Shown in pieces: positions 298 through 4,671 of a stretch of 42,159 nucleotides of DNA (position 1 is its first letter; each line of letters begins with the position of its first letter). The translations under genes were made by a program, and so were the position numbers. Below the pieces are notes generated by a model. That model made no database searches. It saw only the letters and a list, made by a program, of their open reading frames with translations, and was not told where the DNA came from. The stretch is from Acidobacteriota bacterium (GTDB taxonomy: Bacteria > Acidobacteriota > Vicinamibacteria > Vicinamibacterales > SCN-69-37), in the NCBI GenBank assembly GCA_013203475.1, contig JABMNV010000007.1, forward strand, positions 1 to 42,159, given 5' to 3'.

Positions 298-948
298 TCA
301 TCCAGATGGAGTTCCGGCTTCACTGACCGCGCCACGCGCCACAGTGAAGACGCGATCGAAACCGACGTCAAGAAATCGTTGATAGGCCAGGAGCGTGACG
401 CGACCCTCGTGGCGTCGCTGACGCAGCACCTGCCGCAGTGCCATCTGCTGCGCTGAGGCGCCCGGTGCAACGACCTCATCGATATACAGAACCGACGGCC
501 GAAAGATGGAGCCGAGGAGCAGTAACTGGAATCGCCACATTTCTGGATACGTCAGGTCGCGAGGATTGGTGTCGAGGCTCGGCAACGAAAAGGGTTCAAG
601 GCTTCCGTCTGTTGGCGACTCCTGACCTGACTGTGCCACCGCCAGCGCGATCTCCTCAGAGAGGGTGGCTCGAAAAAACTGGAGGTAGCTGATCTGCGAG
701 ACGTAGATGGCCTTTCCGGCCCGCGCCCGCGACGGCGTCTTTGACAGCACAGTGCCGTCCACCGTGATCGTCCCAGACGATGGGCGTATCAGGCCTCCAA
801 TCAGTCGACCCAGGGTGCTCTTGCCAGAGCCGTTGTCGCCCAACACCAGGGCCGACTGCCCGGGTGGCATCTCCAGCGAGACGGCTGTCAAGACGGGCGT
901 GTCCGGGCGGTAGTAATAATCAACCTCGTCCAGGCGCAGAACGCTCAT
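298..948 (-). CDS. ECF-type ABC transporter ATPase, Walker A-bearing subunit (signature motif degenerate)
   Basis: This 216-residue ABC ATPase energises the ECF transporter encoded just upstream. Walker A is intact (GDNGSGKST, residues 37-45), the Q-loop glutamine is at about 85, and Walker B with the catalytic Glu is VLYIDE (153-158). Where the LSGGQ signature should be, at 131-141, it reads DLTYPEMWRFQ, and the switch histidine position reads AYQ (188-190). It is short for the family (about 270-280 residues), lacking much of the C-terminus. It is the last gene of the operon and its start overlaps the end of the preceding ATPase gene by 4 nt. Seen: the motifs and the losses. Inferred: it pairs with the upstream ATPase, which supplies the missing signature. 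Confidence 0.85.
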   Translation of the reverse strand: MSVLRLDEVDYYYRPDTPVLTAVSLEMPPGQSALVLGDNGSGKSTLGRLIGGLIRPSSGTITVDGTVLSKTPSRARAGKAIYVSQISYLQFFRATLSEEIALAVAQSGQESPTDGSLEPFSLPSLDTNPRDLTYPEMWRFQLLLLGSIFRPSVLYIDEVVAPGASAQQMALRQVLRQRRHEGRVTLLAYQRFLDVGFDRVFTVARGAVSEAGTPSG

Positions 949-1463
949 GAGTCGTCCGCCTCGCTCACGGTCGTCCCATCGTCGTTGAGGACGGGGAGCG
1001 ACGGGCGCAGCCGCCGCAGCAGCAGCGAGTCGTATTCACAAAAAACGGCGTCGCCGCCGTCGGCGGCGCGGTCCAGCAGGGTCTCCATTCGCGCGTCGCT
1101 CAAGTGGCTTGTCGTGTCCAGGAGCAGTCGTGCCGGCAGTGAGCGATTCATGAAGAGGGCGAGACCGAGGAACTTCCTCCAGCCGCCTGAAAGATCGAGG
1201 ACGCGATAGTCCAGATGCGCGCGCAGGTTCCATGCTTCGACAAAGTCATCGAACGCGCGCTGGGGGGGCTCTTCGACCGGCTGATTTGCCAGCACCAGTT
1301 GGATTTCTTCGCGCACGGTTTCGCTGAAACCGCTGTGTTCCACGAACGTCAATGGCCGATAGAGATGCACTGGCGGACCCAGATAGACTTCGACGCGTGC
1401 CAGAAGCGAGGTGTGGCCAAAGTCGATGGTGCTGGCGTCTGAACTCAGGATGTAAACTGCCAC
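945..1463 (-). CDS. Degenerate ECF ATPase subunit with LSGG signature but no Walker A
   Basis: This 172-residue protein is recognisably an ABC ATPase only in its second half. Signature LSGGW is at 91-95, followed by a Walker B-like strand ARLLLDTTSHLSD (111-123), where Asp116 is kept but the catalytic Glu is Thr117. The switch histidine position reads EYD (143-145). The N-terminus has no GxxGxGKS/T loop at all; residues 46-58 (FSETVREEIQLVL) align by eye to the region after the Q-loop. The gene starts inside the last codons of the T-component gene (19-nt overlap), and no P-loop appears in other frames upstream. It probably acts as the non-hydrolysing partner that donates LSGG to the Walker A of the neighbouring ATPase. 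Confidence 0.75.
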   Translation of the reverse strand: MAVYILSSDASTIDFGHTSLLARVEVYLGPPVHLYRPLTFVEHSGFSETVREEIQLVLANQPVEEPPQRAFDDFVEAWNLRAHLDYRVLDLSGGWRKFLGLALFMNRSLPARLLLDTTSHLSDARMETLLDRAADGGDAVFCEYDSLLLRRLRPSLPVLNDDGTTVSEADDS

Positions 1464-2131
1464 AACAGCAGCACCCCCACTGCTCCAGTCAGGAGCGCGA
1501 TGTCACCGACGCCAAGTGGCGATCGCGTCTTCATGAGTTTCGGTGGAAATGGCAACCCGAGCATCTGGCAGTAGGCGGATCGGTTTGCCGCTTCGGTGAT
1601 CAAGGCTGCAAGCAGTGGGACCGTCCAGAGGTTCACCGTTCGAAATCTCGAAACGCCTGAGACCGAGTTGATGCCTCGCACGGCCAGATGGGTGTCGATT
1701 TCTCGAAGCCGATTCAAGACGGCCAGGCGAATCGAGCCAATCAGTTGCAGCACGGGGCCGGCGCCAGGCACCCGCAACCGTGCCACGTCGCGCGCGAGTT
1801 GATAGGGATCGACTACTGACGTAAAGAAAATCATCGGCACGATTAGGTACAGCAAGACACGCAGCGAAAATTGGGTGGTGTCGTTCAGCACGAACCGAAG
1901 CGCCTCGGACCACGGTTCAGGTCTCGCGATGCCCAGCACCAGTCCGTACATGCCAAAAATGATGACAAGCGTGATCAGATGCGGCCAGATACGGAACCAG
2001 GCGAAGAGCAGTCCGAAGGCGATGACACAGGTCAGCCACGGCGGCACGCCGAGCGCCGAGAGGTACACGCTCAGACTGAAATAGACCGCTATCAGGGCCA
2101 CGGCGCGAATCCCGGTGAGACCTCCAGCCAC
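1445..2131 (-). CDS. ECF transporter T component (EcfT/CbiQ-like transmembrane protein)
   Basis: A 228-residue membrane protein with hydrophobic segments at about 10-30, 33-66, 90-110 and a C-terminal one at 205-225. Between them lies a long polar, arginine-rich stretch typical of EcfT coupling helices. HLAVRG at about 148-153 matches the Ala-x-Arg-Gly coupling motif, and ANRSAYCQMLG, further on, stands in for the second one. EcfT couples substrate-binding S components to the paired ATPases. It starts at GTG 2131, ten nt after the S-component stop, and runs into the first ATPase gene. The family call is supported by its position between S and A genes. Confidence 0.75.
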   Translation of the reverse strand: MAGGLTGIRAVALIAVYFSLSVYLSALGVPPWLTCVIAFGLLFAWFRIWPHLITLVIIFGMYGLVLGIARPEPWSEALRFVLNDTTQFSLRVLLYLIVPMIFFTSVVDPYQLARDVARLRVPGAGPVLQLIGSIRLAVLNRLREIDTHLAVRGINSVSGVSRFRTVNLWTVPLLAALITEAANRSAYCQMLGLPFPPKLMKTRSPLGVGDIALLTGAVGVLLLWQFTS

Positions 2132-2141
2132 AGTTCGTACG

Positions 2142-2702
2142 TCAGTCCGCGTGAGGCCTCAGGCCGTGCTGCTGGAGGAAGGATCGCGGGAGCGCCCGAA
2201 TGACCGCAATCGACACCAACGTCACAATGAGTTTGTCCACAGGCTCGCTTGTGAACTGGGAGATCATGACGCTTTCCAGCAGCGTCTGCCCGGTGGCGCG
2301 GAAGAACGCGGTAATCAAGTCAGAACCGCTGGTGGTGACGCCTCCGAACACGAATGCGGCAACGGGAGCCGAGGCCAGGGCAGCGGCGCACGCAAGAATG
2401 AGCGCACTCACGACCGTCAGACCCGGCGTGCGATACATGTTTCGACGCCGGAGTTGATCGACCACGACTGCGATGATGACGGCCGTCACGGTGAAGAACG
2501 GCAGGTACGGATTCACGACGAAAAATCCAATAGCGCACGTCAGGACGGCACACGTGGCGCCCGCCCGCCACCCCAATAACAAGCTGGCCAGGACGATTCC
2601 GGTGGAATCGAGATAGATGGGTAGCTTCAACCACGCCACCAATCCACCGATAGTCAAGTTCAGCGCCGTAAAGGCGATCACCAGGGACGTTCGAACAGAC
2701 AC
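2142..2702 (-). CDS. ECF transporter S component, substrate unknown
   Basis: A 186-residue, six-helix-type hydrophobic protein. The start region (LNLTIGGLVAWLKLPIYLDS) and the following LGWRAG, then VFGGVTTSG and SEPVDKLIV, match my memory of a family of ECF substrate-binding S components with the LPxYxDxxG pattern. S components bind a vitamin, nucleobase or similar small molecule in the membrane and dock onto the T/ATPase module. The substrate cannot be told from sequence: no riboswitch or biosynthetic gene sits beside it, and the upstream patatin gives no clear hint. The GTG start at 2702 is preceded by a TATACT hexamer 7 nt upstream and no ribosome binding site, consistent with a leaderless transcript. 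Confidence 0.75.
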   Translation of the reverse strand: MSVRTSLVIAFTALNLTIGGLVAWLKLPIYLDSTGIVLASLLLGWRAGATCAVLTCAIGFFVVNPYLPFFTVTAVIIAVVVDQLRRRNMYRTPGLTVVSALILACAAALASAPVAAFVFGGVTTSGSDLITAFFRATGQTLLESVMISQFTSEPVDKLIVTLVSIAVIRALPRSFLQQHGLRPHAD

Positions 2703-2716: not shown

Positions 2717-3649
2717 CTAGGATTGGGCGGCCCGAAAGGCTTCGATGACGACGCGGCGGCCTTCGGCGGCGCCCGCCTCCAGGATGGAGCGACGGCGTTC
2801 GAGTCTGTCGACCTCGGCGGTGCGCGGACGCAGTGCCAGTGCGTGCGCTCGGCCGGCGGGCCCGGTTCCTGCCCTGATGGTTCGGTTCAGCGCGGCGTAG
2901 GGTTGGCTGCGATTGGCATAGCGATCCGCGAGCGCCGGAGAAATACGGCGAAGGCGTGGGACCACGAGCAGGCGGTCGAACGCGCTGTTTCCCGGTCGCT
3001 CCTCCGTTGGCCGGGTCAGCAGCACCAGCAGGTGAGAGTAGCCGTCGGCCTCGGCCTGAGGCACCGGGACCGGCTCAGACAGCGAGGCATCAAGATAGCG
3101 ACGTCCCCTGTGGGTAAACGGCCCCCCCGCCAGGACCGGCATGGTGGAGCTGGCGCGCAGCGCCGACAGCAGGTCGGCCGACGTCTCGAAGTCGGCGAGC
3201 GGCACCGGCGATGCGGTTTCGACATCCGTGGCCATGATTCGCAGGGGTGTCTCTGACTGCAAAACACGACGCGCGTCCAGTGGCTTCCGGCGCTGGGCCA
3301 CCTCGTCAAAGAGAAACTCAAGGTTGAGGACGGGTCGGCCGAGAAGGATACGTCTAAAATCGATAAACTCGCGACGATTGATATCCTCGTAATAGACCGT
3401 CGTTCCCCGTGCGGCTTGCCCCGCAAGAAAATAGGCACCGCTAATGGCGCCAGCCGACGATCCATAGACCGCATCAAACATGTCGGCGTAACCCAGGTCG
3501 CTCAGAGCGCTCACCATCCCCGCCGACACGACTCCGCGCATGGCGCCGCCCTCAATGCAGAGCGCGACCCGGGCCTGGTCGGCGAACGGGCGGCGTCCCC
3601 CATTGGCAAGACGGGCGCGAAGCAGGTTGATGACAGACTCAGCAGACAC
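2717..3649 (-). CDS. Patatin-like phospholipase
   Basis: A serine lipid acylhydrolase of the patatin/RssA-YchK type, about 310 residues from the chosen start. All family motifs are present: oxyanion loop GGAMRG, nucleophile elbow GSSAG, and the catalytic dyad Asp in YLDASLSEP. Downstream, LLVLLTRPTEERPG and RYANRSQPYAALN match the YchK-like C-terminal region. The open frame extends to 3802, but that would overlap the divergent msrB coding sequence. I therefore start at GTG 3649, which leaves a 75-nt divergent promoter region. A TACAAT lies 11 nt upstream of this start. The stop is 14 nt before the ECF S component, so read-through into the transporter operon is possible. Confidence 0.85.
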   Translation of the reverse strand: MSAESVINLLRARLANGGRRPFADQARVALCIEGGAMRGVVSAGMVSALSDLGYADMFDAVYGSSAGAISGAYFLAGQAARGTTVYYEDINRREFIDFRRILLGRPVLNLEFLFDEVAQRRKPLDARRVLQSETPLRIMATDVETASPVPLADFETSADLLSALRASSTMPVLAGGPFTHRGRRYLDASLSEPVPVPQAEADGYSHLLVLLTRPTEERPGNSAFDRLLVVPRLRRISPALADRYANRSQPYAALNRTIRAGTGPAGRAHALALRPRTAEVDRLERRRSILEAGAAEGRRVVIEAFRAAQS

Positions 3650-3660
3650 GTGGACGGCTG

Positions 3661-3666
3661 ATTGTA
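3661..3666 (-). promoter_or_regulatory. Candidate -10 element for the patatin gene
   Basis: Minus-strand TACAAT ends 11 nt before GTG 3649 in the short msrB/patatin divergent gap. It implies a very short leader of roughly 4 nt. No ribosome binding site is seen. Confidence 0.35.
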
Positions 3667-3724
3667 GCTGTGAAACGCCCAGGGGGCTGATAGCATCGCA
3701 GACAGAGCTGAGAGGACGAGAGCG

Positions 3725-4123
3725 ATGACCGAGATCAAGAAAACCGATGACGAATGGCAGGCACAATTGTCTCCGGAGCAGTACCAGGTGCTTCGCGGCC
3801 ATGAGACCGAGCGGGCAGGTTCGAGTCCGCTCAATGTGGAAAAGCGGGACGGGATGTTCTACTGCGCCGGCTGTGGCCAGCCCTTGTTTTCTTCCCAGAC
3901 GAAGTACGAGAGTGGGTCAGGGTGGCCCAGTTTCTACGACTCGCTTGGCGATTCGGTGACCAGAATCGAGGACAAGAGTCACGGGATGGTTCGAACCGAA
4001 GTGCGCTGCGCCAAGTGTGACGGGCACCTCGGACATCTGTTTCCGGACGGGCCTCACCCAACCGGTCAGCGCTACTGCATGAATGGTGTGTCGTTGGCGT
4101 TCAAGCCGAAGGAGTCGGAGTGA
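3725..4123 (+). CDS. msrB: Peptide-methionine (R)-S-oxide reductase MsrB
   Basis: Reduces the R epimer of methionine sulfoxide in proteins. The 132-residue protein has the full MsrB fold: zinc pairs Cys47/Cys50 and Cys95/Cys98, the SGWPSF substrate loop (65-70), and the catalytic Cys118 in [11 protein letters not shown]. No resolving cysteine is seen in the loop near residue 63, so recycling may go directly through thioredoxin. A purine-rich ribosome binding site (AGAGGACGAGAG) lies just upstream of ATG 3725. The stop overlaps the GTG of msrA, so the two reductases are translationally coupled. Confidence 0.97.
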
Positions 4124-4671
4124 CCCACACAGTGCTCAAGACCCCGATGTCGGCCGCGCCCCCTTCCGGATGCGACGAGGTCGTGTTCGGGATGGGCTGC
4201 TTCTGGGGGGCGGAGCGCAAGTTCTGGACCATTCCCGGCGTGTACACGACGTCCGTTGGGTACGCCGGGGGCGACCGACCCGAGCCGACGTATCAACACG
4301 TGTGCTCCGGAGCGACCGGGCATGCCGAGGTGGTTCGAGTCGTGTTCGACTCGTCGGTCGTGTCGTTCGACGCTCTGCTGCGCGTGTTCTGGGAAAATCA
4401 CGATCCTACGCAGGGCAACCGGCAGGGCAACGATGTGGGTAGCCAGTATCGATCCGTGATCTTCACGTATTCCGCCGAGCAGCGTGCCGCCGCAGACGCG
4501 TCAACAGTGGCCTACCAAGCCCAACTCGAGCAGCACGGGTACGGAAGGGTCACGACGCAGATTGCCGACGCGCCTCCGTATTACCTGGCCGAGGACTACC
4601 ATCAGCAATACCTCGACAAGAATCCGAATGGCTATTGCGGCATCGGCGGTACGGGCGTGACTTGCCGGTAG
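4120..4671 (+). CDS. msrA: Peptide-methionine (S)-S-oxide reductase MsrA
   Basis: Reduces the S epimer of methionine sulfoxide, complementing the upstream MsrB. The active site GCFWG is at 26-30 (nucleophile Cys27), followed by the typical VGYAGG and the HDPTQ.N.QG.D.G.QYRS block. Two C-terminal cysteines, Cys173 and Cys182, are placed as in MsrA enzymes that use a double resolving-Cys relay. GTG 4120 overlaps the msrB stop. The gene converges with the TonB-dependent receptor, 44 nt away; no clear terminator was seen in that gap. Confidence 0.97.

Follow-up and report, generated by a model that had tools for sequence, protein, structure and literature searches.

A four-gene ECF-type cluster with complementary ATPases

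The window, by which we mean the whole 42,159-nucleotide stretch analysed, is contig C14 of an assembly of 264 contigs (3.58 Mb, 95.8% complete) and starts at a contig end. Its first 2.7 kb carry four minus-strand genes in the order S, T, A, and B:

2142..2702, minus strand: S component (substrate-binding membrane subunit), 186 aa, a distant relative of the CD3073 family, recognised by NF045596 and a profile match to other S components
1445..2131, minus strand: probable T component, 228 aa, a divergent membrane subunit for coupling, assigned from a profile match to other T components and its position between S and the ATPases
945..1463, minus strand: A, the first ATPase, 172 aa, which retains the signature and has lost the P-loop and catalytic residues (motif alignment, profile)
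298..948, minus strand: B, the second ATPase, 216 aa, which retains the P-loop and catalytic Glu and has lost the signature (Pfam ABC_tran, motif alignment, profile)

The overlap is 19 bases between T and A and four between A and B, and re-reading of the open reading frames confirmed the coordinates and lengths that an initial annotation had given for both ATPases. A patatin-like phospholipase gene on the same strand ends 15 bases before S, with msrB (SelR) and msrA (PMSR) beyond (2717-3802, minus strand, and 3725-4671, plus strand); both congeners that carry the cluster have a gene for an M1-family peptidase upstream of S where the window has the patatin. The motif columns of the ATPases were read from an alignment of 47 nucleotide-binding domains:

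814..840, minus strand: B, Walker A GDNGSGKST, residues 37-45 (ORF translation, alignment)
538..552, minus strand: B, TYPEM, residues 133-137, at the LSGGQ position (ORF translation, alignment)
475..492, minus strand: B, VLYIDE, the Walker B motif and catalytic Glu158 (YIDE at 155-158; ORF translation, alignment)
382..384, minus strand: B, Tyr189 (in LAYQR) at the switch-His column (alignment; same in all three orthologues)
1302..1340, minus strand: A, EHSGFSETVREEI, a post-Q-loop insertion (LSG/LTG) as in the first ATPases of the clade described below (alignment)
1179..1193, minus strand: A, LSGGW signature, residues 91-95 (ORF translation, alignment)
1113..1130, minus strand: A, RLLLDT, with Walker B Asp116 kept and the catalytic Glu replaced by Thr117 (Ala in both congeners; alignment)
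1029..1043, minus strand: A, FCEYD, with Tyr144 at the switch-His column (alignment)

The initial annotation had described B as an ATPase with Walker A, Walker B, and the catalytic Glu but with TYPEM in place of an LSGGQ-like signature. Translation and alignment bear this out, and TYPEM falls exactly on the LSGGQ columns. B also has the Q-loop Gln (Q85, in YVSQ), a D-loop that reads APGA, and a Pfam ABC_tran match of 50.2 bits over residues 21-106; its profile matches ABC proteins, EcfA1 included, among the sequences of solved structures. Absent from that annotation is the replacement of the switch His by Tyr: LAYQR aligns with ISHD/ITHD, and since the Tyr is found in all three orthologues, the surviving site is not fully canonical.

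A is the counterpart, and the alignment confirmed what had been claimed for it, namely LSGGW without Walker A, catalytic Glu (Thr117), or switch His. The Q-loop column has no Gln, and the P-loop is absent. A mis-called start, a frameshift, or a hidden upstream P-loop was ruled out, as the open frame spans 185 codons and the start of A lies inside the 3' end of T (1445-1463), which leaves no room for the missing N-terminal part. A matched no Pfam family, its profile met sequences of solved structures with E-values of 0.018 and worse only, and the AlphaFold model built from three orthologues was poor (mean pLDDT 55).

The S component matches NF045596, the CD3073 family, with an E-value of 8.8e-24 and 84.1 bits (cut-off 180 bits), and its profile matches the S components of other clusters (probability 99.8, E 3.6e-30), to which it is 25-34% identical where aligned. 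These two matches place it among ECF S components, though below the curated cut-off, and it is encoded together with T and two EcfA-type ABC ATPases that are both homologous to the A and B subunits of related modules. T had no Pfam or NCBIfam match and is a putative T component by a profile match, over its coupling region, to the T components of relatives, Cetobacterium included (probability 76, E 2.2e-5). Its AlphaFold model was poor (pLDDT 43), and the profiles of T and S matched none of the sequences of solved structures.

Conservation of the losses within the genus

Searching 60 genomes, the window's own included, returned orthologues of A from two congeners (G006 and G005) at 70% identity and more than 225 bits, and no other genome, four more congeners among them, exceeded 26 bits; the cluster is present in three of the seven genomes of the genus that were searched. 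A T profile matched two of 396 genomes of the phylum (the window's own and G005) and, against genome contigs, two loci that both belong to congeners, and a ten-row S profile matched three of 193 genomes of the class, all from one genus. Direct searches of a plasmid collection gave no relatives of T or A. Over their full alignments, the orthologous ATPases are 60-69% identical to those of the window, and the three clusters, which were assembled separately, have the same gene order, overlaps, and motif losses.

All four genes are under purifying selection. By the Nei-Gojobori method, the three pairwise dN/dS values are 0.13-0.17 for B, 0.11-0.17 for A, 0.08-0.15 for T, and 0.03-0.05 for S, rough values given that dS is high (1.0-2.6). 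Among the three orthologues of B, the longest invariant runs span 22 columns around Walker A and 12 columns, NPRDLTYPEMWR, at the substituted signature, which is therefore conserved in its altered form. In A, they are FVEHSGFSETVREEI (15 columns) and RVLDLSGGWRK (11 columns). At an overall identity of 60-69%, such runs exceed what chance would give. The losses thus co-occur and are conserved in all three orthologous clusters, and none of the orthologues has the full set of motifs that would have pointed to decay or mis-sequencing. Because the losses are common to two congeners and the dN/dS of the ATPases is 0.11-0.17, neither decay nor sequencing error accounts for them. A decaying or mis-assembled cluster is scarcely credible: the contig end at the start of the window and the presence of the cluster in only three of seven genomes could suggest it, but order, overlaps, and losses are identical in three separate assemblies and dN/dS is well below 1 in every gene.

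The same evidence bears on whether the ATPases are vestigial, with ATP-independent transport by S alone or by S with T. That S is by far the most conserved component (dN/dS of 0.03-0.05 versus 0.11-0.17 for the ATPases) agrees with such a view, which is nonetheless highly improbable in light of the low dN/dS of the ATPases and their invariant Walker A and signature runs.

It was also considered that B or T works with a canonical ATPase encoded elsewhere, with A as a non-catalytic adaptor. The genome has 47 PF00005 matches and may lack about 4% of its sequence; however, it contains no match to PF02361 (CbiQ-type T) and no match to ECF_ATPase_1 above the cut-off of 315 bits (the best reaches 161), the four genes overlap or abut and stay together in all three species, and with a canonical partner there would be no explanation for the invariant LSGGWRK of A. 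Such an arrangement is quite improbable. As far as the 95.8%-complete genome allows a test, it thus holds no additional canonical EcfA for this T, the finding that the initial annotation had named as one that would overturn its reading; a hidden canonical partner is unlikely, with about 4% of the genome possibly missing and the window beginning at a contig end.

One-sided degeneration across related ECF modules

With the window S as the query, the plasmid collection, some entries of which are plainly chromosomes or large fragments, gave 13 records at 31-37% identity; 52 records were obtained with the Salmonella S and 50 with the Haladaptatus S. Seventeen loci were fetched from the S matches. 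Annotation or an ORF scan showed an ECF module in 13 of them; in L032, L035, L039, and L040, S stands without adjoining T and ATPases. The 13 modules are that of Cetobacterium and 12 that we refer to as the sister clade:

Bacteria: Salmonella (L031), E. coli (L045), Paracoccus (L030), Enterococcus raffinosus (L034 and L044), Streptomyces (L037), Lactococcus (L041), and Ligilactobacillus (L042)
Haloarchaea: L029, L033, L036, and L043

The Cetobacterium S scores 225 bits on NF045596, above the cut-off; the six sister-clade S components tested score 90-142 bits and, like the window S, fall below the 180 bits or more of the CD3073 family proper. All four sister-clade T proteins tested match CbiQ.

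Each composite ATP site was scored for seven features: in cis the Lys and Ser/Thr of Walker A, the Q-loop Gln, the Asp and Glu of Walker B, and the His, and in trans the SGG of the signature. Site alpha combines the catalytic residues of A with the signature of B, and site beta those of B with the signature of A. The motif table holds 24 systems, to which one further heterodimer, from B. subtilis, was added. Both sites are complete (63/63 each) in eight group II EcfA1-EcfA2 pairs together with the Cetobacterium CD3073 module, and with the intact B. subtilis pair there are ten canonical heterodimers without loss; BioM of Azospirillum also has canonical motifs. The 11 sister-clade systems with both ATPases score 44/77 at alpha and 77/77 at beta, and the window with its two orthologues 3/21 and 18/21, counts that refer to systems and not to independent events, as relatedness is close within the haloarchaea, between the two enterobacteria, between the two lactic plasmids, and among the three window loci. 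Judged as an asymmetric ABC system, the window genus thus has one site that is complete except for the switch His, which accounts for all three misses at beta, and another that is almost entirely lost.

The B signature is lost in all 12 sister-clade systems, where it reads LHAA, LHSA, LDAG, LNDT, LPYS, LSLG, LSLS (twice), or one of four haloarchaeal forms, and the A signature is kept in all 11 that were aligned. Eight of the 11 clusters with a whole first ATPase have also lost residues of the same site from A:

Streptomyces and both E. raffinosus loci: none
Salmonella, E. coli, and Paracoccus: His
Lactococcus: Glu (to Asp) and His
Natrinema: Q-loop and His
The other three haloarchaea: Ser/Thr, Q-loop, Asp, Glu, and His
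Window genus, for comparison: P-loop, Q-loop, Glu, and His

Residue counts are based on 11 clusters because the alignment excludes the first ATPase of L042, which is annotated with 185 aa and ends shortly past the signature. In this locus, pSF118-44 of Ligilactobacillus salivarius, the first ATPase (L042:5822-6379) appears broken after the signature, a separate small ORF follows, and the second ATPase is whole. In a cobalt ECF cluster of Listeria, CbiO, the only ATPase (L064:3001-3807), has LSYGQ for LSGGQ, so a change of the first signature Gly also occurs in a single-ATPase ECF cluster.

The sister clade resembles the window in that A precedes B where they are separate genes, A keeps the signature and B does not, and A has an insertion after the Q-loop. 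It differs in that whole first ATPases keep the P-loop Lys and lack the catalytic Glu only in three haloarchaea and Lactococcus, none of the 12 systems has lost the switch His of B, and the aligned T components have both coupling Arg residues. The initial annotation had held that both ECF ATPases normally keep all motifs, which is right for the ten canonical heterodimers but not for the sister clade, all 12 clusters of which have the same degenerate site. It had also called the asymmetry extreme for an ECF transporter, and the window does stand at the far end (3/21 versus 18/21), yet it is a member of a series and not an isolate. What the window holds is a genus-restricted extreme, under selection, of a one-sided asymmetry that is common to a wider ECF clade.

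The correspondence of the subunits is supported by profiles, an insertion, and a tree. The A profile matches the first ATPases of relatives better than the second (E 1.8e-9 versus 1.7e-6), the B profile the second better than the first (E 5.6e-32 versus 5.4e-27), and the insertion after the Q-loop (LSG or LTG, HSG in the window) is common to first ATPases, with B and a control shown without it. In a tree calculated without the motif columns, all 15 B sequences lie to one side of a branch supported at 85/96, as do all 14 A sequences with respect to a second branch (76/88); the supports are modest, and long branches meet. Given these long branches, a single loss of the B signature in the clade is no more than likely, and the distribution of losses suggests an order in which the B signature went first (in all clade members), the catalytic residues of A followed piecemeal, and the P-loop went last.

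Nucleoside hydrolase genes lie beside or near S in three of the four haloarchaeal loci, in one of the two E. raffinosus loci by annotation (L044, one gene), and in two S-only loci; in the haloarchaeal plasmids L029, L033, and L043, they neighbour S, T, and a fused ATPase, with two such genes each in L029 and L033. This suggests a nucleoside-related substrate for parts of the sister clade. A nucleoside or nucleobase substrate was also considered for the window module but not adopted, as the window's own genome has no match to PF01156. A gene for a PPC-domain DNA-binding protein, a possible regulator, directly precedes S in Salmonella L031 and Paracoccus L030. Two other Acidobacteriota (loci L027 and L028, genomes G235 and G114) have weak NF045596 matches in open frames of 921 and 573 codons, possibly S-fold domains within larger proteins.

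A predicted single-site motor

In ABC proteins, each ATP site is built from two subunits, one contributing its P-loop side and its partner the signature (PMC7756269). Two copies of B would lack a signature and two copies of A a P-loop, which leaves the heterodimer as the only pairing expected to form a site. We therefore read the cluster as a dedicated S-T-A-B importer, probably driven by an obligate ATPase heterodimer with a single composite ATP site. In the surviving site, B would supply the P-loop, Q-loop, Walker B Asp, and Glu, with the LSGGW of A opposite them; at the mirror site, the P-loop half (A) and the signature half (B) are both lost and most likely no nucleotide is bound, since ATP binding is improbable where A has no P-loop. 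In each cycle, the heterodimer would close on binding one ATP and reopen on its hydrolysis, and this motion, passed on through the coupling helices of T, would release and re-dock S. The initial annotation had proposed one working and one dead site; the complementary losses behind this stand in all three clusters, and the surviving site is presumed to work with a Tyr at its switch-His position.

T has itself changed, in a feature absent from the initial annotation:

1673..1681, minus strand: first coupling motif VRG, kept (aligns with ARG/LRG/VRG/SRG of other T components)
1556..1564, minus strand: second coupling motif MLG, Arg lost (alignment; MLG in all three orthologues)

The second motif reads xRG or MRA, with the Arg, in 12 of the 12 other T components aligned (11 from the sister clade, where the Streptomyces L037 T was not extracted, and Cetobacterium), so the window T departs in all three orthologues from the two xRx motifs expected of an ECF T component. 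In the EcfAA' heterodimer, the coupling Arg is described as binding aspartates (PMC4820897), and by our reading the acid column that it contacts would be the post-Q-loop position of FQNPD. In B, this column holds a Tyr in all three window-genus sequences, whereas nine of the 12 sister-clade B sequences and all ten canonical ones have an acid there; in A, it is non-acidic throughout the clade. Loss of the anchor for the dead subunit was considered and dropped as an account of the change in T: coupling helix CH2 is described as anchored in EcfA and CH3 in EcfA' (PMC10368641), which together with a weak profile match of the relatives' A to EcfA1 would put the lost Arg opposite the live subunit. 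The lost Arg would then face the subunit whose partner acid is lost too, and we assign it no mechanism. With the second Arg gone, coupling could be weakened.

Several considerations weaken the one-site reading: the switch His of the live site is Tyr in all three orthologues, T and A match no Pfam family and have poor AlphaFold models, so that fold and dimer are predictions from sequence, T lacks the second coupling Arg, the tree has modest supports and long branches that meet, and the canonical group II module of L. delbrueckii needs both catalytic Glu residues, as Glu-to-Gln changes in either ATPase are described as causing severe growth defects and abolishing ATPase activity and transport in vitro (PMC10368641). 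The first of these, with Tyr in the switch-His column of both subunits and the second coupling Arg of T gone, would suit an ATP-binding switch with little or no hydrolysis, in which ATP clamps the dimer, the Tyr slows turnover, and the complex serves S as a slow gate or regulator and not as a pump. We regard this as unlikely but deserving of weight. A pure binder needs no Glu, whereas Glu158 is kept under purifying selection together with Walker A, the Q-loop, and the partner signature; moreover, the live-site His is kept in 12 distant relatives.

Extending the single-site reading to the sister clade, we lean modestly towards a one-ATP-per-cycle motor shared by bacteria and haloarchaea, in which the B signature was lost once, A degenerated stepwise in a number of lineages, and, in the window genus, a P-loop-less A would lend only its signature to a machine whose T has given up one of its two ATPase anchors.

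Among known systems, the CD3073 modules, such as that on plasmid p4 of Cetobacterium somerae (L038), have a homologous S and, like the window, cluster S, T, and two separate ATPases, but both Cetobacterium ATPases are canonical and the gene order there is S, TudS-like, A, A', and T. Group II ECF transporters (EcfA1, EcfA2, EcfT) likewise use two different ATPases and one T to drive S, yet both ATP sites are canonical in all nine pairs examined. Plant ECF ATPases ABCI10 and ABCI11 are described as having all classical motifs (PMC6828968). Asymmetric sites are well documented in exporters, and in Pdr5 one half has an altered Walker A Lys, Glu, and His (the last to Tyr) and the opposite half an altered signature (PMC7756269). 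By analogy, Pdr5 is the nearest known logic and a precedent for a dead site that has lost all motifs, His-to-Tyr included. Pdr5-type and other asymmetric exporters (Pdr5, TAP, ABCG5/G8) pair one canonical with one degenerate composite site, an arrangement that the window cluster resembles except that its live site lacks the switch His. In these exporters residues are substituted, whereas in the window a separate ATPase subunit is without its entire P-loop segment. The exporters also have their ATPase domains fused to membrane domains. Our literature search, which covered part of the published work, returned no description of a degenerate-site ECF transporter.

How many ATP molecules an ABC importer spends per cycle, and whether hydrolysis is needed at both sites, is a standing question. 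If the one-site reading is true, the sister clade has escaped the canonical ECF need for both catalytic Glu residues. One site would have been removed stepwise, under selection, across living species, so that the ATP spent per toppling cycle would be measurable in natural variants and not in mutants, as would the role of the non-catalytic half, and the clade offers a test of whether one ATP site suffices for ECF transport. Nature seems to have made a one-cylinder ECF engine, an uptake pump that appears to use one ATP site and not two.
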